From Woeseia sp. (lineage in GTDB: Bacteria; Pseudomonadota; Gammaproteobacteria; Steroidobacterales; Woeseiaceae): a stretch of DNA of 64,000 nucleotides. The stretch spans positions 2,649,305 through 2,713,304 of the forward strand of contig JAJFKW010000001.1 of NCBI GenBank assembly GCA_021773015.1, written 5' to 3'. Positions 39,909 through 58,292 of this stretch are shown here, piece by piece. Below the pieces are notes generated by a model. It ran no database searches and had not been told where the DNA came from. It was given only the letters and a program-made list of their open reading frames with translations. Each line of letters begins with the position of its first letter. The stretch's first letter is position 1. The position numbers and the translations under genes are program-made.

Positions 39909-40073
39909 CTACAGAGCAACCAAAGAGGCCGCTATCTTCGGGTCTGCGCGAGGCTGTGTAAAGCCGCGGCAAGGATCTATATGTTTTATGCAATTTTCGA
40001 GCGATTCGGTGGCCGATAGGCGCTAGAATGCGCGTCCAAATTTGATTAAATATTGACCACCAAAAATTCACCA

Positions 40074-42017
40074 ATGAGCAATAGCAACCCATTCGCAGTC
40101 GTTGTAGTAGGTGGCGGACACGCTGGCACTGAAGCCGCGCTCGCGTCCGCGCGCCTGGGCGTGGCGACGCTGTTGGTTACGCAAAAGCTCTCGACGCTCG
40201 GGCAAATGAGCTGCAATCCGGCCATTGGCGGTATTGGCAAAGGACACCTCACTCGCGAGGTTGATGCGCTCGGCGGCGCGATGGCCAGCGCAATCGACAA
40301 AGCTGGCATCCAATTTCGCATGCTCAACGCGAGTAAAGGGCCGGCAGTGCGTGCGACACGTGCGCAAGCTGATCGTGAGCTCTACCGGCAAACGATCCGC
40401 AGTATGCTGGAAAATCAAGCAAACTTGACGTTGGTCGAACAAAGCGTTGCGGACCTCATTGTTAAAGGTGGACGTGTCGCCGGCGTGATCACCGATGACG
40501 GCAGTGAGATTTTTGCGCCACAAATTGTTTTGACCGTTGGCACCTTTCTTGGCGGTCGAATATTGATCGGCGCAGAGGAAAAGGCGGGCGGGCGCGTGGG
40601 CGACGCACCCTCTAACCGGTTGGCTGAGCGCTTGCGCGAATTGCCCTTTCGAGTCTCGCGATTGAAAACCGGCACCCCACCGCGCCTCGACGGCAAGACG
40701 CTGAACTATGATGCAATGATCAGACAACCGGGCGATACGCCAACGCCAGTATTTTCATTTCTCGGCACGCGCGGCGAGCACCCCCGACAGATCGATTGTT
40801 TTATTACGCGGACGAACGAAAAGACCCATGACATCATTCGTGGTGCGCTTGATGAGTCGCCGATCTATACCGGTGTTATAGAAGGCGTCGGACCGCGTTA
40901 CTGTCCGTCGGTAGAGGACAAGGTCGTGCGTTTCGCGGACCGGGACTCGCATCAAATATTCGTCGAGCCGGAAGGCCTGAATACAGACACGGTTTATCCA
41001 AACGGAATTTCGACAAGTTTGTCGCAACAGACGCAGCTTAAGTTTGTGCGCAGCATAGAAGGATTCGAAAACGCACAAATTTCACAACCGGGCTACGCAA
41101 TCGAGTATGACTATTTCGATCCGCGCGATCTGCGCCCATCGATGGAAACGAAGCATCTCGACGGACTCTATTTTGCCGGACAAATAAACGGCACAACAGG
41201 TTATGAGGAGGCAGCAGCGCAGGGTCTGCTCGCCGGCCTCAATGCTGCGCGCGCGGCGGCCGGGCAAGACAGTTGGTATCCAAAACGCAGTGAGGCCTAC
41301 ATTGGCGTTCTGGTAGACGACCTCACTACGCGAGGCGTGAGCGAACCCTACAGAATGTTTACCAGTCGCGCGGAGTATCGTTTGCTGTTGCGCGAAGATA
41401 ATGCAGATCTACGACTAACGCCTGTCGGTAGAGAGTTTGGCTTGGTCAACGACACTCGCTGGGAGATTTTTTGCACGAAACAGTCTGCGGTTGCCGACGA
41501 GCAACAACGCCTCAACAAAATTATCGTGCGTGAGTCACAGATCAACGCACGAGACCGGGAATTGCTAGGTACAAACTTTCGCCGGGAAATACGCGCATCG
41601 GAATTATTACGGCGTCCCGAAATAAGCTATTCAGGGCTGTGTAAACTATCAACCGTTGGCGATGGCGATGGCGATGGCGATGGAGATGGCGATGGAGATG
41701 GTAATTGGCGCGGCGATTTTCCAGACGAGATTGCAGAACAAGTTGCGTTGCAGTTGGAGGCAACCGCTAAGTATGCTGGATACATTCAACGTCAGCAGCG
41801 GGAAATAGAAAAACACGCCAAGCAGGAGGCATTGCGCTTACCTGATTCAATTGACTATGCGTCAGTGCGCGGTCTTTCGACAGAGGCGCGGCAAAGACTG
41901 CAGTCGTCTCGCCCGCTAACAATCGGTCAAGCCTCGCGACTGGAAGGTGTAACGCCATCAACGGTTTCTTTGCTCCTGTTGCACATAAAGAAGCAGCAGC
42001 TACAAAAAACCGCGTGA
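40074..42017 (+). CDS. mnmG: tRNA uridine-34 5-carboxymethylaminomethyl modification enzyme MnmG
   Basis: A 647-residue FAD enzyme that partners MnmE. The FAD motif [21 protein letters not shown] follows the ATG at 40074; a TTG at 40053 would add seven residues. [14 protein letters not shown]-type sequence ([14 protein letters not shown]), [22 protein letters not shown], and [18 protein letters not shown] are hallmarks. The C-terminal domain with [23 protein letters not shown] binds MnmE. Between LSTV and NWRGDF lies a Gly-Asp tract of seven dipeptides, encoded by a hexanucleotide repeat, in a loop where E. coli MnmG has no such insert. Confidence 0.97.
41661..41702 (+). repeat. Hexanucleotide repeat GATGGN, seven units, inside mnmG
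   Basis: Seven tandem copies: GATGGC x3, GATGGA, GATGGC, GATGGA, GATGGT. They encode (Asp-Gly)7. Third-base variation shows the array is slightly older than the perfect array at 24845-24904. Copy-number change would be in frame. Confidence 0.95.
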
Positions 42018-42781
42018 GTAACACGCGCTTGTTTTCATTGTCAGCAAATGGGTGCAACCGCCAGCGAAAAAAAACCGCAGGCAGGGGCGTGCCGGGTATA
42101 TTGAGCGGTGTCTTGGGCCTTTTGCTAGCAAACGCCACTACTGCTCACGCACTTGAGTTTTCGGGAGCAGCAACGATCACGACAGACTATATCTATCGCG
42201 GACTGTCGACCTCAGGCGGCAACCCGGCGTTGCAGTTGGGCGTTGATTTGCATCATAAGAAGGGCTGGTTTGCAGGAATATGGGCGTCGACAGCGAACCT
42301 GAAAACCGGCGATGGTCGCCGTCACTTGGAGGTAGATATTTACGCTGGGTATCAGTTTCAGCCGAACAAGGATTGGTCGGCGACCATGACAGTCCTTCAC
42401 TACACCTTTCCCGATGCTAGCGGACCGCGGAATTACGATCATACTGAGTTGCTGTTGGGCGTCGACTTTTTGCGTCACTACTCTGCGGAGCTCGGATACA
42501 CCAATGACGTTTACGGTTCTGGGCGGGACGCCAAGCATTGGGAGCTGAGAGGCGACTGGCCAGTCGGCAATGCGTGGACCATCGGTGCCGGAGTGGGCGG
42601 CAACGATCTATCCGATTTCGGCACGCCGCACTATTTGCATTGGGATGTGGGTGCAAGCACTCGACTATCGAGATTTACTTTCGATCTTCGCTGGCACAAC
42701 AATGAAACACCCGATCGCGGTGTTGTCGTAGCGCTATCCGCAGAGTCTCAGCTCGTGCTATCGATTTCGGCCGGGTTTTAG
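42014..42781 (+). CDS. TorF family putative porin
   Basis: A 255-residue outer-membrane beta-barrel protein of the TorF/Gcw_chp family. It starts at a GTG that overlaps the mnmG stop by four bases (GTGA). The signal-like hydrophobic segment is at about 29-46 after an unusually long basic N-terminus, so the true start may lie further in. The mature part opens [36 protein letters not shown], the family signature (YxxRGxS and PAxQ), and continues as alternating strands ending in an aromatic residue (SISAGF). Its cargo is unknown. Confidence 0.85.
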
Positions 42782-42809: not shown

Positions 42810-44090
42810 TTAGCGCGCTGCACTACCGTTTGCGCCGCAAGTTGCGTCACCGAATAATGGCGCCAGCGCGCGACAGGCGTTCACAATACCGCGTGTCGAA
42901 GCTGGGCTATCAACGATCAGCTGACGGACCTCTTTTCCGGATAACTTTGGCTGCGCGGCAACCAGTAAAGCTGCGATGCCGCTAACGTGCGCTGCAGCAA
43001 GGGAACTGCCAGACGCAAAATCGTAACTATCGTGCGGCGCGGCAACCAAAATTTCGTCTCCTGGCGCGTTGACGGCACTAAGGTGGCCGGAATCCGCACC
43101 TGCTGAGTCGGCCGCAACAACCAGGACGCCCGGTACATTGGTTGGAAAGCCGGATAAAGTATCAGCAGGCGCAGCCGCGACAACCGTAATTCCTTTGTCA
43201 ATCGCGTTATGAATCAGCCGTGCCAGCAATGGATCGGGTGGGCCACCTAGGCTTAGGTTAATAATGTCGGCCGCAGATTCGATGGCGTGACTCAATGCCC
43301 GCGCTAACGTAAAGCTGTCACACACGGCCCGCCTCTTGTCAGCGAGATACCAGCAGGCTTTTAAAATCGATAAATGTGCCTCCGGAGCGACGCCGACAAT
43401 GCCTTCGCCATTGTTGATTGAGGCGGCGATAATCCCGGCAACGGCGGTGCCGTGAGCATCGGCAACTCCGCCGCGATTCTTGGTGCCAACAAAGTCTTGA
43501 TGCTCGGCAATCTGTCCGGCCAATTCGGGATGGCGTAGATCGGCACCGGTATCCACAACAGCGATTCGCGCGCCCTGGCCGCGAGTCCAGGCGTGGGCTT
43601 GCGGAATTTCTAGAGTATCAAGCACATGTTGGAATCGTGCGTACGGATCCAGGTTACTCGACTGCGCTGTCCCGAAAGCAGAAAATGTGTTGAGGCGCTG
43701 CACCGACTCGACGTCATTGCGCGCTTCCAGCTTGGATATTAGTGTGTCTACAGATAGGTCCGTTGTGCGCTCCGAATCAAGCGCATAGACGACGCAAAAC
43801 ACAGCAAGCGGGCGAATCGGCCATTCGTCTATTTTTTGCAGTCCAAATAGTTTTGCGATGCGTTTTGCTGAGCGGCTAATCGCAACGGATGTGGTGTAAC
43901 TACCGCTGCTTCGACGGTAGCTAGGACGAGCCGGGCCGCCGCGATGCGCGTTACGCATTCCTGGGTCTGCAAAGGTCACTAATATCCTAACCGCATCGTC
44001 GCTTTTATTGCCTTCTTCGGCAGCTAATAGACTTGGCAGCGATAGCGACACCAACATCAACAGGCTTACAATTTTCGTCGTTATCGTCAT
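42810..44090 (-). CDS. Exported S8 (subtilisin-like) peptidase, oxyanion Asn not seen
   Basis: A 426-residue exported subtilase. Signal peptide about 1-23; an N-terminal prodomain (about 33-136) ends with the propeptide-like LISKLEARNDVESVQRLN. The catalytic triad is readable: Asp180 in AVVDTGADLRHPEL, His213 in DAHGTAVAGIIAA, Ser363 in ASGSSLAAAHVSGIAALL. Where subtilases have the oxyanion-hole Asn in an AAGN motif, this protein reads VVAAAPADTLSGFP, with Ala309 in that place, so activity may be reduced or altered. The gene is third in an apparent operon: sigma factor, anti-sigma factor, protease, with a 9-bp gap after the anti-sigma gene. Confidence 0.9.
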   Translation of the reverse strand: MTITTKIVSLLMLVSLSLPSLLAAEEGNKSDDAVRILVTFADPGMRNAHRGGPARPSYRRSSGSYTTSVAISRSAKRIAKLFGLQKIDEWPIRPLAVFCVVYALDSERTTDLSVDTLISKLEARNDVESVQRLNTFSAFGTAQSSNLDPYARFQHVLDTLEIPQAHAWTRGQGARIAVVDTGADLRHPELAGQIAEHQDFVGTKNRGGVADAHGTAVAGIIAASINNGEGIVGVAPEAHLSILKACWYLADKRRAVCDSFTLARALSHAIESAADIINLSLGGPPDPLLARLIHNAIDKGITVVAAAPADTLSGFPTNVPGVLVVAADSAGADSGHLSAVNAPGDEILVAAPHDSYDFASGSSLAAAHVSGIAALLVAAQPKLSGKEVRQLIVDSPASTRGIVNACRALAPLFGDATCGANGSAAR

Positions 44091-44099
44091 TTGTCAGCT

Positions 44100-44726
44100 C
44101 TATTGCGCAGTTACCGGTTGCGCGAATAACACCCGATCGTCTACCTGCAACGCCGCCGCGATGGCCGATCGTTCGGTCACGCCTAATGGTCGCGACGTTG
44201 TCAATGTATAGACGCCGCGCTCGCTTGGCCCCGAATACAGTGCCAAATCTTGCTCGCCGAGCAACGTCGTCAGCTCTGCCAATGTCAACGTTGGCGAAAA
44301 GACAGCGCGAATCAATCTTTGAGCGTTTTCCGCCGTTGGCTTGCTCAAGGTCCTAAATTCAGGCGCGCGCGCACCTGGCAGCAAAACCATTGTCGCGACA
44401 ATAGCCACGACCGCGCTCTGTGCGACAAAAGCGAAGCGCCACGGTCGTGCAACAATGTTGCTACGGGTTACCGACCAAAGGTTTTGCAGGCGGCTTGGGG
44501 TTGCAAGCTTATCGATACGTTGATTGATTCGCCGCATGTCGATAGCCGGCGCAGTCTGCGACGCTAGAAATTGTTCGGCAGATGTTTGCAGTGCCCGCAG
44601 CTGCCCAAGTTCCTTGCGGCATATCACGCAGCTTGAGGCATGGGTCTGCACGGCTTCGCTTTGGGCATGTTCCAGCGAGCCGTTTATCAACCACGGCAAT
44701 AGTGAATTGGCTTCGGCATGCAGCAT
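44100..44726 (-). CDS. Transmembrane anti-sigma factor with zinc-binding N-terminus
   Basis: A 208-residue membrane protein. The cytoplasmic N-terminus holds the zinc anti-sigma motif H29-x3-C33-x2-C36 within THASSCVICRKELG. One transmembrane helix lies at about 98-117. The periplasmic part (about 122-208) reads AQRLIRAVFSPTLTLAELTTLLGE, YSGPSERGVYTL and AAALQVDDRVLFAQPV, a pattern that recalls subtilase propeptide-type domains. It starts one base after the stop of the sigma factor gene and ends 9 bp before the S8 protease gene. It should hold the sigma factor inactive at the membrane. How it is released is unknown, but the adjacent protease is an obvious candidate. Confidence 0.85.
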   Translation of the reverse strand: MLHAEANSLLPWLINGSLEHAQSEAVQTHASSCVICRKELGQLRALQTSAEQFLASQTAPAIDMRRINQRIDKLATPSRLQNLWSVTRSNIVARPWRFAFVAQSAVVAIVATMVLLPGARAPEFRTLSKPTAENAQRLIRAVFSPTLTLAELTTLLGEQDLALYSGPSERGVYTLTTSRPLGVTERSAIAAALQVDDRVLFAQPVTAQ

Positions 44727-44727
44727 T

Positions 44728-45321
44728 TTATTTAACCTGACCTTGAGTTGCCTTCACGCGAGGCTCTCCGAGCTTCGGCAGCAAAACCTGTAGCCGCCGT
44801 CTTGCGTGAAACATTCTTGTCTTAACCGTATTCACCGGGCAGCCTACTATGGCCGCGATTTCGTCGTAAGAGAAGCCACCGAAATAGGTGAGGTCGATAA
44901 TCTGCCGGTGGTCAACACTCAAATGTTGTAGACCAACATCCAGCCAATTGTCCGGTGTTGTCGTATGGCCCACCAGAGACGCTTCGTCGACGCTGTGGTC
45001 CAGCCGGGATTGATAGCGCTTTTCCTTGCCGAGTGCAGCCAAGCCTTTGCGATACGCAATACCAAATACCCAGGTTGAAACCGCCGATTTACCGCGAAAT
45101 TTGCTGGCATCTTTCCAAACGACGAGCATGACATCGTCCAAAACCTCTTCGGCGGTGCAGGCGTCGCGCAACATTCTTCGCAAATAGCCGAAAAGCTTTG
45201 GCTGAAAGCGGCAATACAGTGCGCTAAACGCCTCGCGGTCGCGGCCGCAGACCTGCTTGAGCAGTGCCAAATCGAGGCCAGCCGGGTCCGGCGTGCTGGT
45301 GTTTTCCGATACGTCGGCCAA
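44728..45321 (-). CDS. RNA polymerase sigma factor, sigma-70 (ECF) family
   Basis: A 197-residue ECF-type sigma factor with a TTG start preceded by GGAAGG. Region 2 reads REAFSALYCRFQPKLFGYLRRMLRDACTAEEVLDDVMLVVWKDASKFRG. Region 4 reads HLSVDHRQIIDLTYFGGFSYDEIAAIVGCPVNTVKTRMFHARRRL, a clear helix-turn-helix that recognises the -35 element. The anti-sigma gene follows one base after the stop. The gene diverges from the c-haem lipoprotein gene, whose 155-bp upstream region may hold its target promoter; I could not identify a clear GGAAC-type -35 there. Confidence 0.92.
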   Translation of the reverse strand: MADVSENTSTPDPAGLDLALLKQVCGRDREAFSALYCRFQPKLFGYLRRMLRDACTAEEVLDDVMLVVWKDASKFRGKSAVSTWVFGIAYRKGLAALGKEKRYQSRLDHSVDEASLVGHTTTPDNWLDVGLQHLSVDHRQIIDLTYFGGFSYDEIAAIVGCPVNTVKTRMFHARRRLQVLLPKLGEPRVKATQGQVK

Positions 45322-45476
45322 AATCGTCGCCTTCCGCGCAAACTACCATAAAGCTTAAGTGCGCCAATGAGCGCCAAAAGTTCAATCGCGCGAACAAATA
45401 AGGGCATTTGAACCATTAGCCGCCGGTTTGCCACTCAAGGACTGAACATGTCTTTTCTTGACGGAGCAACTGGACT

Positions 45477-46679
45477 GTGCCGCAACGTAGAATTTATAGC
45501 GCGATAATTAACGGTGTGGCGGCCATATTGTGCGCCTGTAGTGCCGGTAGCGGCGGGGGCTTAGATGTGGCTGGCCGCCCTTCGTCGCCCGATGGCGGCG
45601 TGGCACCTGCGCCAACTTTAGCGTTCCTGCAGGGAGAACTTTTCGACGCCTCTTGCATCATCTGCCATGCCGGAGCAAATGCACCGCTTGGCCTGCGTCT
45701 CGATACGGAAAACAGCTTCAACAATTTAGTTGGGGTACCCAGTCGACAACAGGGGTCGTTGCTGCGCGTCGACCCCGGCCAACCGGCTCAGAGCTATTTG
45801 ATTCAGAAGCTAGAAGGGCGCGCGTCGGAGGGCGCACAAATGCCGCTCGGTGGTCCACCGGTTCCGCAGGAGATTATTAACTTTGCGCGGCAATGGATCT
45901 TGGATGGCGCGCAGGCCAGCGCAAGTGACACGCAGCCGATTTCGCCGCCAGTGGTGACGTCGTTTACGCCAGAGCCAGGCGCCGCTCTACCGTCATTACC
46001 GGCGCAAATTGTCGTCGGCTTTGATCAGGAGATCGATGCATCGACCGTCAACGAGATGACGATCGAGATTTTGCGCAGTGGTGATGACGGCGAATTCGAA
46101 AGCGGCAATGAACGGGCGGTACCGATTTCCGCTTTTTCGCTTGCCACGGCGAATCCGCGGCTTGCGCTGATCGACATACGCGGCGCAGCTGCAATTGATG
46201 ACGCCTATCAAGTGACGATTCGCGGCAGCGGCGGCAGTCTCTTGCTAAGCATCGGTGGGCGGGCGTTGGACGGCGAATTTAGCGGCTCACTACCATCTGG
46301 CGATGGCATCGAAGGCGGGGACTTTGTCGCAACATTTTGGGTGCGCAGTATTCAGGCGAACTTGCAGTCAATCCAAGACAATGTATTTGCCGTTAGCTGT
46401 TCGCCCGGTTGCCATACCGGCCCAACTAGCAGCAATTTACCAAGCGGCATGGACTTAAGCAGCGCGGCTGCGAGCTTTGCCAGCCTGGTAGGCGTCAACA
46501 GCCTGCAGTCACCGGCCCAGTTTCGTGTTTCGGCTGGCGACGCCAGCACAAGCTACCTGGTGCAAAAAATTGAGGGGACCGCGACCGTCGGCGGTCGTAT
46601 GCCGTTAGCTTCTGCGCCGCTAGATCAGGTGACGATTGATGCCATTCGTTTGTGGATAAACGACGGAGCGAATCCGTGA
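45477..46679 (+). CDS. Lipoprotein with c-type haem motifs and an Ig-like middle domain
   Basis: A 400-residue predicted lipoprotein (GTG start, GGAG 10 bp upstream; lipobox ending in Cys21). Residues 55-140 resemble a cytochrome-c-like module with C60-I-I-C-H64, a spacer, then PAQSYLIQKLEGRASEGAQMPLGGPPVP and a distal WILDGA helix. A middle region (about 155-280) looks like an SbsA/Big-type Ig-like domain (VVGFDQEIDASTV). A second module repeats the first, with the haem motif written C308-S-P-G-C312-H313, i.e. CX3CH, and SYLVQKIEGTATVGGRMPL. The repeated QKIEG and RMPL motifs match cytochrome-like proteins of Planctomycetes and Gammaproteobacteria. Its role is likely electron transfer or haem sensing at the outer membrane. 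Confidence 0.78.
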   Translation: MPQRRIYSAIINGVAAILCACSAGSGGGLDVAGRPSSPDGGVAPAPTLAFLQGELFDASCIICHAGANAPLGLRLDTENSFNNLVGVPSRQQGSLLRVDPGQPAQSYLIQKLEGRASEGAQMPLGGPPVPQEIINFARQWILDGAQASASDTQPISPPVVTSFTPEPGAALPSLPAQIVVGFDQEIDASTVNEMTIEILRSGDDGEFESGNERAVPISAFSLATANPRLALIDIRGAAAIDDAYQVTIRGSGGSLLLSIGGRALDGEFSGSLPSGDGIEGGDFVATFWVRSIQANLQSIQDNVFAVSCSPGCHTGPTSSNLPSGMDLSSAAASFASLVGVNSLQSPAQFRVSAGDASTSYLVQKIEGTATVGGRMPLASAPLDQVTIDAIRLWINDGANP

Positions 46680-47761
46680 AGCATTGCGTATCGGTGATGC
46701 TCTTAGTCATTTTTTGTCAGGCGCATATAGCACATGCGGAACCTTATCTCGCAATAAAAAAGGGGCTGAAGTGTTTGGCATGCCACAGCTCGCCAAGCGG
46801 CGCCGGTAAGCGTACGCCGTACGGTAATTTGTTTGCAGCGACAGAGATGCCCGCTCATAAGCTGCCGGGAAAGGCTGCTAATTTTTGGTCTGGAGAGATT
46901 TCAAAGTATTTGGCCGTCGGCGGTGACGTGCGAGCTGCGTGGAATCGAATCGATGTCCCCGGCCAAGCGGCAACGGAAGACGCCGCGCTCAGCGAAATAC
47001 TGAGCTACGCCGAACTGCGGCCCATGCCGAAATACCTTACGCTCTACATCGACGCAAAAATTGCGCCGGACGACGTCACTGTTCGAGAGCAATACGCGAG
47101 ACTATCTACGCAAAGTGGCCGAATCTACCTGCAAGCCGGCGAGTTCTTCCTGCCATACGGGTGGCGCATACAGGACGATGATGCATTCATACGCCAAGTC
47201 AGCGGCATTAATTTCAACACCCCAGACAGTGGCTGGCAGCTGGGCTGGGAACAAGGCAATTGGTCATCGCAATTTGCTGTCAGCCGAGGAACGGCTGGCG
47301 GACCGGAAGTTGATTCGGGTAAACAATATAGTTTGCGAGTCAGTCGCGTCGTCTCGAAATGGCGCGTTGGTGGTAGTGTCAATTTCAATGATTCAGCATT
47401 GGGTGACCGGCAAATGCAAAACATCTTTGCTGGACTGCGCACAGGTCGCGTCGCATGGCTCGGAGAAGTCGACTTAATCATCGACAAGGGTCTATCCGGT
47501 GGCCGTCGCGAGTTGTGGGTAGCACTACTGGAAGCAAATATTTCTCTCGGTCAGGGCCACAATCTGAAGCTAACCTACGAACACTTCGATCCGGACGGCG
47601 ACATCGCCGAAAATGAACAGAACCGATACTCGGTTGTCTGGGAGTATTCGCCAATACGCTTTTTGCAGTCGCGCATTGGTTTGCGCAATTTTGAAGGCAT
47701 TCCACAAAATTCTGCACAAAATCGCGAGCAGTGGTTCATCGAATTACACCTGCCGTTTTAA
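46676..47761 (+). CDS. Outer-membrane barrel-like protein with one c-haem site
   Basis: A 361-residue exported protein starting at GTG in a four-base GTGA overlap with the lipoprotein gene, with GGAG 7 bp upstream. A signal peptide (about 1-21) is followed closely by a haem site, GLKCLACHSSPSGAGKRTPYG (C33-L-A-C-H37). The remaining ~300 residues alternate polar and hydrophobic strands with many aromatic residues and end in Phe (IELHLPF), as expected of a beta-barrel. Proteins that join a KCxxCHxxPxGxG site to a barrel occur in several proteobacteria and are thought to serve extracellular electron transfer or porin functions; none is well characterised. Translational coupling implies partnership with the lipoprotein. 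Confidence 0.78.
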   Translation: MKHCVSVMLLVIFCQAHIAHAEPYLAIKKGLKCLACHSSPSGAGKRTPYGNLFAATEMPAHKLPGKAANFWSGEISKYLAVGGDVRAAWNRIDVPGQAATEDAALSEILSYAELRPMPKYLTLYIDAKIAPDDVTVREQYARLSTQSGRIYLQAGEFFLPYGWRIQDDDAFIRQVSGINFNTPDSGWQLGWEQGNWSSQFAVSRGTAGGPEVDSGKQYSLRVSRVVSKWRVGGSVNFNDSALGDRQMQNIFAGLRTGRVAWLGEVDLIIDKGLSGGRRELWVALLEANISLGQGHNLKLTYEHFDPDGDIAENEQNRYSVVWEYSPIRFLQSRIGLRNFEGIPQNSAQNREQWFIELHLPF

Positions 47762-57407: not shown

Positions 57408-58292
57408 ATGGCCGATAAAGCAAACGCGACTCTCTGGCAAGCAATTGAAAACGAACGACCTTTGCAAATCGTCGGCACGATAAACGCGTATGCAGCGCTG
57501 CTCGCGGAGAACGCCGGATTTAGCGCGATCTACCTCTCGGGTGCTGGTGTCGCCAACCATTCGTTCGGTTTGCCCGATTTGGCGATGACAACCCTAAATG
57601 ACGTTTGCGAGGACATTCGGCGTATCAGTTACATCACGGACTTGCCGTTGCTGGTCGATGCCGATACCGGGTGGGGCAGCGCCTTCATGATCGGCCGGAC
57701 AATTCGTGAAATGGCGCGAGCCGGAGCTGCCGGCTGCCACCTTGAAGATCAAGTCAGCGTTAAACGATGCGGACATCGCCCCGGCAAGGTGCTGGTCGAC
57801 AGCGGCGAAATGTGCGACCGCATCAAGTCAGCAACTGATAGTCGAGACGATGAAAGTTTCGTCATCATGGCGCGAACCGACGCGCACGCCGTAGAGGGCC
57901 AACGGGCGGCGTTGGATCGTGCGGCTGAATATGTTAACGCAGGCGCCGATATGATTTTTGCTGAAGCATTGACCACGCTTGATGAGTACCGTGAGTTTAC
58001 AAGTACGATTCAAGTACCCGTGCTGGCGAACCTAACCGAATTCGGCAGTACGCCTTTGTTCACTGCGAAAGAACTTGGCGACGTTGGTGTGCAGCTCATT
58101 CTTTACCCGTTGGGCGCATCGCGCGCGATGGCGAATGCAGCCGCGAGTGTTTACAAGATCATTCGCGAGGATGGAACGCAAAAAGCAAGCGTGCCGGCGA
58201 TGCAGACCCGCGACGAACTCTACGAAGTTCTGGGCTATCGAGATTACGAAGATAAATTAGACGAGCTGTTCGCAGAAAAAGGCTTGAAGTAG
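57408..58292 (+). CDS. prpB: Methylisocitrate lyase
   Basis: A 294-residue TIM-barrel lyase of the isocitrate lyase/PEP mutase superfamily that splits 2-methylisocitrate into pyruvate and succinate. The catalytic loop KRCGHRPGK (Cys121) is specific to methylisocitrate lyase. Metal-binding Asp85 lies in LLVDADTGWG. HLEDQ, VMARTDAHAVEG and the C-terminal YEVLGYRDYEDKLDELF complete the pattern. The next gene is prpC, so the methylcitrate cycle is likely complete here except for methylaconitate steps handled by PrpD or by aconitases. Confidence 0.96.
   Translation: MADKANATLWQAIENERPLQIVGTINAYAALLAENAGFSAIYLSGAGVANHSFGLPDLAMTTLNDVCEDIRRISYITDLPLLVDADTGWGSAFMIGRTIREMARAGAAGCHLEDQVSVKRCGHRPGKVLVDSGEMCDRIKSATDSRDDESFVIMARTDAHAVEGQRAALDRAAEYVNAGADMIFAEALTTLDEYREFTSTIQVPVLANLTEFGSTPLFTAKELGDVGVQLILYPLGASRAMANAAASVYKIIREDGTQKASVPAMQTRDELYEVLGYRDYEDKLDELFAEKGLK

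Follow-up and report, generated by a model that had tools for sequence, protein, structure and literature searches.

A subtilase propeptide may have been built into a transcription switch in a Woeseia sp. genome. In the 64,000-nucleotide stretch analysed here (assembly GCA_021773015.1, contig JAJFKW010000001.1, positions 2,649,305 to 2,713,304; hereafter the window), the genes of a sigma factor of the extracytoplasmic function (ECF) type, a membrane-bound anti-sigma factor and an S8 subtilase lie side by side, and the resemblance of the periplasmic domain of the anti-sigma factor to a subtilase propeptide is supported by sequence profiles and by a structural model. Together with a fourth gene, overlooked in the earlier reading of this DNA (the original prediction), they would form an envelope-to-nucleoid unit of four parts: a TorF-family outer-membrane protein, a periplasmic S8 protein, a propeptide-bearing anti-sigma factor and an ECF sigma factor. 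We propose that docking of the S8 protein on the anti-sigma factor gates the release of the sigma factor by controlling the access of proteases to the anti-sigma factor, and we give this explanation as a whole a probability of about 0.5.

The three core genes are all on the minus strand, and their common direction, positions and gaps of 1 bp and 9 bp are those given in the original prediction. The sigma factor (44728-45321) consists of 197 amino acids read from a TTG start and, being short and having region 2 and region 4 only, falls among the ECF sigma factors; it scores 42.6 bits with Sigma70_r2 (cut-off 24), 53.6 bits with Sigma70_r4_2 (cut-off 25.7) and 74.4 bits with the sigma70-ECF model (cut-off 42.9). 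The S8 subtilase (42810-44090, 426 amino acids), with a signal peptide, a prodomain and a catalytic domain, matches Peptidase_S8 (PF00082) with 114 bits (cut-off 21.8). The zinc-finger-type anti-sigma factor between them (44100-44726, 208 amino acids) has the two features of ZAS anti-sigma factors. These are an N-terminal H-x3-C-x2-C motif, H29...C33xxC36 in full-protein numbering (44619-44642, minus strand), whose His and two Cys residues are invariant in an alignment of 29 rows, and one membrane span, the putative transmembrane segment at residues 96-115 (44382-44441, minus strand). The latter is predicted from the hydrophobic sequence and from a helix at 95-114 of the AlphaFold2 model, the numbering of the model, of the 29-row alignment and of the family alignment being that of the full protein minus 1, as the row of the window begins at codon 2. 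The family alignment comprises 76 rows, namely the window protein and 75 of the 76 anti-sigma references from a survey of 80 loci described below (L069 was omitted). The zf-HC2 match of the window protein is weak (E 0.1, below the cut-off), 70 of the 76 family members reach E 1 or better, and the N-terminal part aligns structurally with RsiW (5wuq_D, Z 6.9).

Beyond the membrane helix, AlphaFold2, run on the 76 sequences, predicts a confident beta-alpha-beta-beta-alpha-beta domain (strands 137-142, 160-164, 172-176 and 198-203, helices 148-157 and 182-194 in model numbering), with means of the predicted local distance difference test over 10-residue blocks of 85 to 98 from residue 131 onward; together with the C-terminal tail, this propeptide-like domain occupies residues 138-208 (44103-44315, minus strand). 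Its three best structural matches are entries of the PC1/3 prodomain (Z 8.2, 7.7 and 7.7), and subtilisin propeptides follow at Z 6.5 to 6.7; in such a comparison rows within Z 1 of each other are tied, and values below 8 may reflect only a common arrangement. The sequence profiles point in the same direction. Fervidolysin_NPro-like (PF22148) of Pfam is matched at E 1 or better by 29 of the 76 family members (best E 3.3e-7), and one anti-sigma factor that accompanies a second clade of proteases exceeds the cut-off of this model (21.1 vs 21), while five others scanned alongside have no match. In hhalign, the profile of the anti-sigma domain aligns with that of the cognate S8 prodomain at E 4.8e-6, the probability being 86, or 61 when the alignment is global; the four controls, in which other segments were compared, gave weaker values of 0.1 to 3.7. 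A recent origin of the domain by copying of the S8 prodomain was rejected, since PF22148 is matched more often by the anti-sigma factors (29/76) than by their S8 partners (4/77). The propeptide-like domain proposed in the original prediction is thus supported by its fold, which turned out not to be unlike that of propeptides, by the PF22148 matches and the profile match to the cognate prodomain, and by two features that bear on docking, a cap residue and the length of the tail.

As described for subtilase-propeptide complexes in the consulted part of PMC6993865, the propeptide provides a Glu that caps one of the helices of the enzyme, and its C-terminal tail occupies the groove of the active site; the examples given there are Glu69 of subtilisin BPN', Glu209 of PfSUB1 (end at 217) and Glu146 of SUB1-ProM (end at 153), so that the two malarial propeptides end 8 and 7 residues past the Glu. 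The last strand of the anti-sigma family follows the pattern V-x-[LF]-[AV]-E-P, and its Glu was placed on Glu69 of BPN' by a by-eye alignment of this strand. The cap position is Glu in 64 of the 76 rows, Gln in 6 and another residue in 6, and in 70 of the 76 the chain ends 4-10 residues past it, about where propeptides end. The conservation of both the cap position and the tail length makes the anti-sigma factor look like a membrane-tethered, already cleaved propeptide. As to the domain ends quoted in the original prediction, that of the S8 prodomain, LISKLEARNDVESVQRLN, is present, while the anti-sigma chain runs three residues further than quoted, its true C-terminus being ...VDDRVLFAQPVTAQ.

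The S8 protein has the subtilase fold together with the Asp-His-Ser triad and thus belongs to the S8 family; its model aligns with pro-subtilisin E over 330 residues at Z 40.8, covering prodomain and catalytic domain (32-410). The alignment used below contains 77 rows, i.e., the window protein and 76 of the 80 S8 references from the same survey (L073, L075, L109 and L113 were omitted). Asp180 (43551-43553), His213 (43452-43454) and Ser363 (43002-43004), all on the minus strand, are invariant in 77/77 rows, as are Cys246 and Cys257. The loop that usually carries A-A-A-G-N with the oxyanion Asn reads AAAPADT in the window protein (residues 305-311; 43158-43178, minus strand). Another Asn nearby, alone or after Gly, Ala or Lys, is found in this loop in 6 of the 77 rows, and column 310 holds Asp in 25 and Asn in 10 rows; judging from the alignment, the Asp or Asn of this column may substitute for the oxyanion Asn. 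Proteases of the second clade, from trios at L129-L147, have A-A-G-N in 19/19 rows. In a tree of catalytic domains (37 in all, from 20 of the 77 first-clade rows, 12 of the 19 second-clade rows and five other S8 proteins of the same genome) each clade lies on one side of a branch, with supports of 99/95 and 96/92; as there are few outside sequences in the tree, no sister relationship is claimed for the two. The second trio class combines its canonical S8 active site with a divergent C-terminal domain, and no TorF gene was found within about 1.5 kb on either side, as far as present at these loci. With a simple pattern, which overlooks some cases, 33 of the 77 rows were seen to have a lipoprotein-type signal, the window protein not being among them. 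The S8 prodomain (residues 33-142; 43665-43994, minus strand), delimited by the alignment with pro-subtilisin E, contains a nearly invariant Cys99 (43794-43796), present in 76 of the 77 rows; in eight rows it may be unpaired, as these have only three cysteines in total, and a redox or metal role of this residue is possible.

The side-by-side arrangement of the three genes is not peculiar to the window. A search with the anti-sigma protein against 296 genomes of the same order gave matches in 63, some over the N-terminal part only, and at 28 of the 30 order-level loci (L007-L036, the own locus included) the sigma, anti-sigma and S8 genes adjoin; the exceptions, L013 without sigma and L036 without S8, both stop short at a contig end. 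The second set of loci was obtained from named genomes by an S8 profile search and consists of the best 80 of at least 477 confirmed relatives, and is therefore not a random sample. Complete trios were found at 73 of these 80 loci, at 71 of them on one strand and in the same gene order; at the other two, L046 and L094, the S8 gene is on the opposite strand from the sigma/anti-sigma pair, but close by. Among the incomplete loci, L050, L073, L075 and L113 are interrupted by a contig end, at L044 there is no anti-sigma match within the only 359 bp present upstream of the S8 gene, and at L077 no sigma gene was found in this survey. L069 (Rhodanobacter sp. OK091) appears to be a decaying copy, in which a second S8 gene follows a shrunken anti-sigma gene and no sigma gene was found; the remnant keeps the zinc-finger part, the last strand and the tail, the middle being gone, and an intact trio (L068) lies elsewhere on the same contig. 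The conservation of the trio in related genomes, which the original prediction had set as a check, is thus borne out, and chance adjacency is ruled out by its recurrence at most loci examined.

The trio is also found far outside the order. At the phylum level, 129 of 397 genomes gave a match to the anti-sigma profile at E 0.001, many over the zinc finger only; in at least 39 of the 397, as read from the printed rows, the match begins at the zinc finger and reaches the C-terminal domain. Among the 30 best phylum-level loci (L119-L148, the own locus being L125) the S8 gene stands beside the sigma/anti-sigma pair at 28, all but L127 and L148; at L131 and L133 it is on the far side of the sigma gene. 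Judging from the record titles, the S8 proteins of the trio type range over gamma-, beta- and alphaproteobacteria and some Acidobacteriota; the hosts of S8 relatives include Dyella, Rhodanobacter, Xanthomonas, Luteibacter, Nevskia, Woeseiaceae, Steroidobacteraceae, Nitrosomonas, Duganella, Massilia, Rhizobacter, Novosphingobium, Sulfitobacter and Acidobacteriota, among others. The public annotation of Sphingomonas sp. R1 (OIM94_RS18965 to RS18980) has the same gene order, porin included. An early scan of genome contigs with the single anti-sigma protein had given 104 pattern matches and no confirmed relative.

The fourth gene (42014-42781, plus strand) is convergent with the S8 gene, at 28 bp from its stop codon, and encodes a TorF-family (Gcw_chp) outer-membrane protein: the product scores 137.8 bits with TIGR02001 (TorF family putative porin, cut-off 47.15) and 94.7 bits with PF09694, a family whose function is listed in Pfam as unknown. 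When neighbouring frames at the 80 named loci were clustered, TorF / Gcw_chp came first with 44 loci, the next family having 8. A profile built from the very loci in which TorF was then counted found a homologue at 67 of the 80 loci, 65 of the 73 complete trios and 28 of the 30 order-level loci; in an independent check, 66 of 68 proteins (the 67 homologues and the window protein) matched TIGR02001 of NCBIfam at E 0.001. On the same strand, the gene lies upstream at 37 and downstream at 20 of the 67 loci, and the other 10 have a different arrangement; it is mostly within 350 bp, the distance to the sigma gene being larger at L052 (1.6 kb) and L094 (3.4 kb). Genes of PF09694 are scarce, with two in the own genome and 31 among the matches listed, spread over 22 of 30 genomes (own included), which also counts against chance adjacency. 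The presence of the TorF gene at 67 of the 80 loci and in the window leads us to count four genes in the unit. Three alphaproteobacterial trio loci without a TorF gene (L063, L080 and L101) have downstream genes in common, among which are those of a peptidoglycan-binding-domain protein (L080), a protein kinase (L063), a type VI secretion system ImpA_N protein (L080) and a HAMP/Tll0287-like protein (L101), the last with a strong copy of the promoter motif; a by-eye reading of one gene at L080 as caspase-like was rejected, as Pfam gives only the peptidoglycan-binding domain.

The sigma genes themselves are preceded by a common two-block motif of the ECF type, TTGAACCTT or TGCAACCTT, a 12-bp spacer and GGGTACTTAC, mostly about 30-50 bp ahead of the start, which predicts the autoregulation characteristic of ECF sigma factors. 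The final model was made from 95 of 102 sigma upstream regions; when the regions were split in two, 46 of the 51 held out scored at least 10 as against 2 of 153 shuffles, the loci being mutually related, also across the two halves of the test. In the window the predicted promoter, TTGAACTTT N12 GCGCACTTAA (45355-45385, minus strand, score 19.8), is 33 nt from the sigma start, a distance also seen at L008-L010 and L012. When the promoter pattern was searched for in the own genome, one exact match was obtained, at the sigma gene itself, which is a partial source of the pattern, and with up to two mismatches there were 7 matches in total vs 14 for the reversed control.

A weaker copy of the motif (45408-45438, plus strand, score 11.7) precedes a divergent gene (45477-46679, plus strand), the predicted target, whose lipoprotein-like product has c-type-cytochrome-like motifs and gives 23.9 bits with Big_5 (cut-off 23.6) and 19.8 bits with PSCyt1 (cut-off 22). 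Such a site is found before this cytochrome-like gene at five of the six close loci L007-L012 (own included), and the gene has a homologue at 13 of the 110 loci L007-L116 (own included). This gene and a porin-like gene with CxxCH together occupy 45477-47761, and homologues of both occur near the trios at L053, L058 and L090. Outside the sigma promoters, 44 further sites with scores of at least 15 were listed at the 80 loci, as against 2-4 expected from a first-order Markov model; two of the entries are one and the same site, at L112, and another, at L058, stands before the sigma gene if a different start is assumed. The strongest (28.0) stands before the S8 gene of L046, where this gene is split from the sigma pair. 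The predicted target genes fill 37 rows, and 16 target proteins were scanned. Their matches include plastocyanin-type Copper-bind (L073, L085, L099), TIGR03118 (L043, L111), NHL (L078), PEP-CTERM (L115), CHRD with PSCyt1 (L041), a weak match to a diheme-cytochrome model (L090), RTX-type repeats (L052), Ig-like repeats (L086) and a HAMP/Tll0287-like sensor (L101), and the targets at L087 and L039 have no Pfam match. The gene of the intramembrane JDVT-CTERM protease MrtJ, divergent from the sigma gene, lies behind a sigma-type promoter at L096 (2-2456, minus strand) and L103 (2067-2417, minus strand), both proteins scoring above the cut-off, and a JDVT-CTERM protein adjoins MrtJ at L096; the position of the promoter would tie the unit to a C-terminal sorting system. 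A motif match at 57982-58013 of the window was dismissed, being inside a gene on the other strand. Elsewhere in the window, an mnmG/GidA-like frame (40053-42017) has a run of Gly-Asp repeats in its C-terminal third, apparently derived from a short in-frame tandem repeat and a possible slippage site.

The docking explanation can now be put in steps. The anti-sigma domain would dock on the face of the S8 protein that normally holds the prodomain of the latter, and its C-terminus would sit in the active-site cleft, as that of a cleaved propeptide would; which S8 residues it contacts is inferred from the pro-subtilisin-like model. An envelope signal would alter whether the S8 protein, its own prodomain lost or displaced, is free to take the anti-sigma domain, and the outer-membrane partner, a likely source or target of the signal, is possibly involved in freeing it. 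The captured anti-sigma factor would then be cut, or opened to intramembrane proteolysis, and the released sigma factor would transcribe its own operon and nearby genes of exported proteins. We suppose that the clade of the window's S8 protein, lacking the oxyanion signature, is probably slow, single-use or largely a binder.

The direction of control is the least certain of these steps. An activating protease is our first choice, and the alternative is a co-inhibitor, i.e., an S8 protein that binds the propeptide-like domain and shields the anti-sigma factor until a signal pulls it away, in the manner in which RseB shields RseA. The absence of A-A-G-N from 77/77 rows would suit this arrangement, an altered oxyanion loop being proper to a binder rather than a cutter, as would the common operon of the S8 and anti-sigma genes under a sigma-type promoter and an anti-sigma C-terminus suited to lie in the cleft as a product inhibitor would. 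However, a pure binder has no need of the Asp, His and Ser that are invariant in all 77 rows, and the canonical active site of the second clade (19/19) also speaks against it. We consider a co-inhibitor rather unlikely. It is likewise unlikely, and slightly more so, that the propeptide-like fold serves another ligand and the S8 protein is merely a member of the regulon, made when the sigma factor is active. Ferredoxin-like domains are common, the S8 gene is part of the operon, and at L046 it has a promoter copy of its own, as a plain target would have; but a mere output would explain neither the conserved cap position and tail length, nor the pairing of such anti-sigma factors with two distinct S8 clades, nor a profile similarity that is specifically to subtilase propeptides. 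That the domain is a second intermolecular chaperone or inhibitor of the S8 protein, which protects the cell and has little part in sigma control, seems quite improbable: stand-alone propeptide-like inhibitors do exist (PMC6993865, in the part consulted), but the S8 protein already has a prodomain, and the fusion of the domain to a membrane-bound anti-sigma factor suggests that the sigma factor reads its occupancy.

The docking explanation, for its part, has to face several observations that weigh against it. The window anti-sigma factor has Gln, not Glu, at the cap position and no PF22148 match at E 1, and a Foldseek search with its model came back empty at E 0.001. Scores of Z 6 to 7 are also reached by ribosomal S6, RRM and ACT-type domains, and unrelated ferredoxin-like rows at 7.0 count as tied with the prodomain rows at 7.7; since such unrelated folds score about as high, the fold alone is weak and poorly discriminating evidence. 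The S8 protein has a prodomain of its own, with which the anti-sigma domain would have to compete. Its clade has the oxyanion A-A-G-N signature in 0/77 rows and so departs from canonical subtilisins; efficient cutting is thus not assured, and the changed loop, as read from the alignment, argues against an efficient protease. Finally, no TorF gene was found at 8 of the 73 complete trios (L038, with little upstream flank, among them), and where present it lacks a clear promoter motif of its own: the best pair of blocks found upstream of the 67 TorF genes occurs in 14 of them, with shuffle maxima of 8-10, and is G+C-rich and not ECF-like, and none of the sites listed with the sigma-promoter model was assigned to a TorF upstream region.

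Several known systems share parts of this design. In RsiV-SigV of Bacillus subtilis, the outer domain of the anti-sigma factor is an inhibitor-like receptor for lysozyme, the binding of which triggers proteolysis of the anti-sigma factor; the unit described here would likewise have an inhibitor-like receptor for an enzyme, although the enzyme, the fold and the host are different and here the operon itself codes for the enzyme. RseA-RseB-DegS and MucA-MucB-AlgW comprise an ECF sigma factor, a membrane anti-sigma factor, a periplasmic partner and a dedicated protease, i.e., the same kinds of parts, but, unlike our unit, neither an S8 subtilase nor a propeptide-like domain. The Csp subtilases of clostridial spores, germination receptors with altered active sites and a sensing role, appear in NCBIfam model names as the pseudoproteases CspC and CspBA; they resemble the window's S8 protein in the altered active site and differ from it in having no sigma factor, while here the triad is intact. 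Stand-alone propeptide-like inhibitors are known under short names as POIA1 in Pleurotus, IB2 in yeast and SPI-1 in Arabidopsis. The part of PMC6993865 consulted lists such subtilase inhibitors from Pleurotus, yeast and Arabidopsis together with TgMIC5 and Plasmodium SUB1-ProM, and the anti-sigma domain shares with them the propeptide fold, the helix-capping Glu and a free C-terminus at about the right distance, and with the Plasmodium inhibitor also a gene position near subtilase genes; unlike them, it is the periplasmic end of an anti-sigma factor, and inhibition is only putative. In the ECF54 group, too, a subtilase belongs to the gene context of an ECF sigma factor, but the proposal made for it concerns, in the part of PMC8999054 consulted, sigma factors without an anti-sigma factor. 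The build of the anti-sigma factor suggests a control of gene expression by a protease from outside the inner membrane. We found no report of a trio of this kind, with a propeptide-like anti-sigma factor and its cognate S8 protein, among the listed titles and abstract beginnings of the open literature, mention elsewhere being possible.

More broadly, and with somewhat less than even confidence, we suppose that the units form a widespread proteobacterial class, in which the sigma factor would read the zymogen state of a TorF-coupled subtilase and answer with exported, partly C-terminally sorted surface proteins, the oxyanion-less clade being slow, single-use or mainly binding. The promoter motif provides a compact tool for the prediction of regulons, and a link of the unit to PEP-CTERM/JDVT-CTERM surface proteins is possible. 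If docking is true, the propeptide, known as a folding helper and inhibitor, would have taken on a new role as the sensory part of a transcription switch, and a function would thereby be suggested for many S8 proteases and for the TorF-family outer-membrane proteins.

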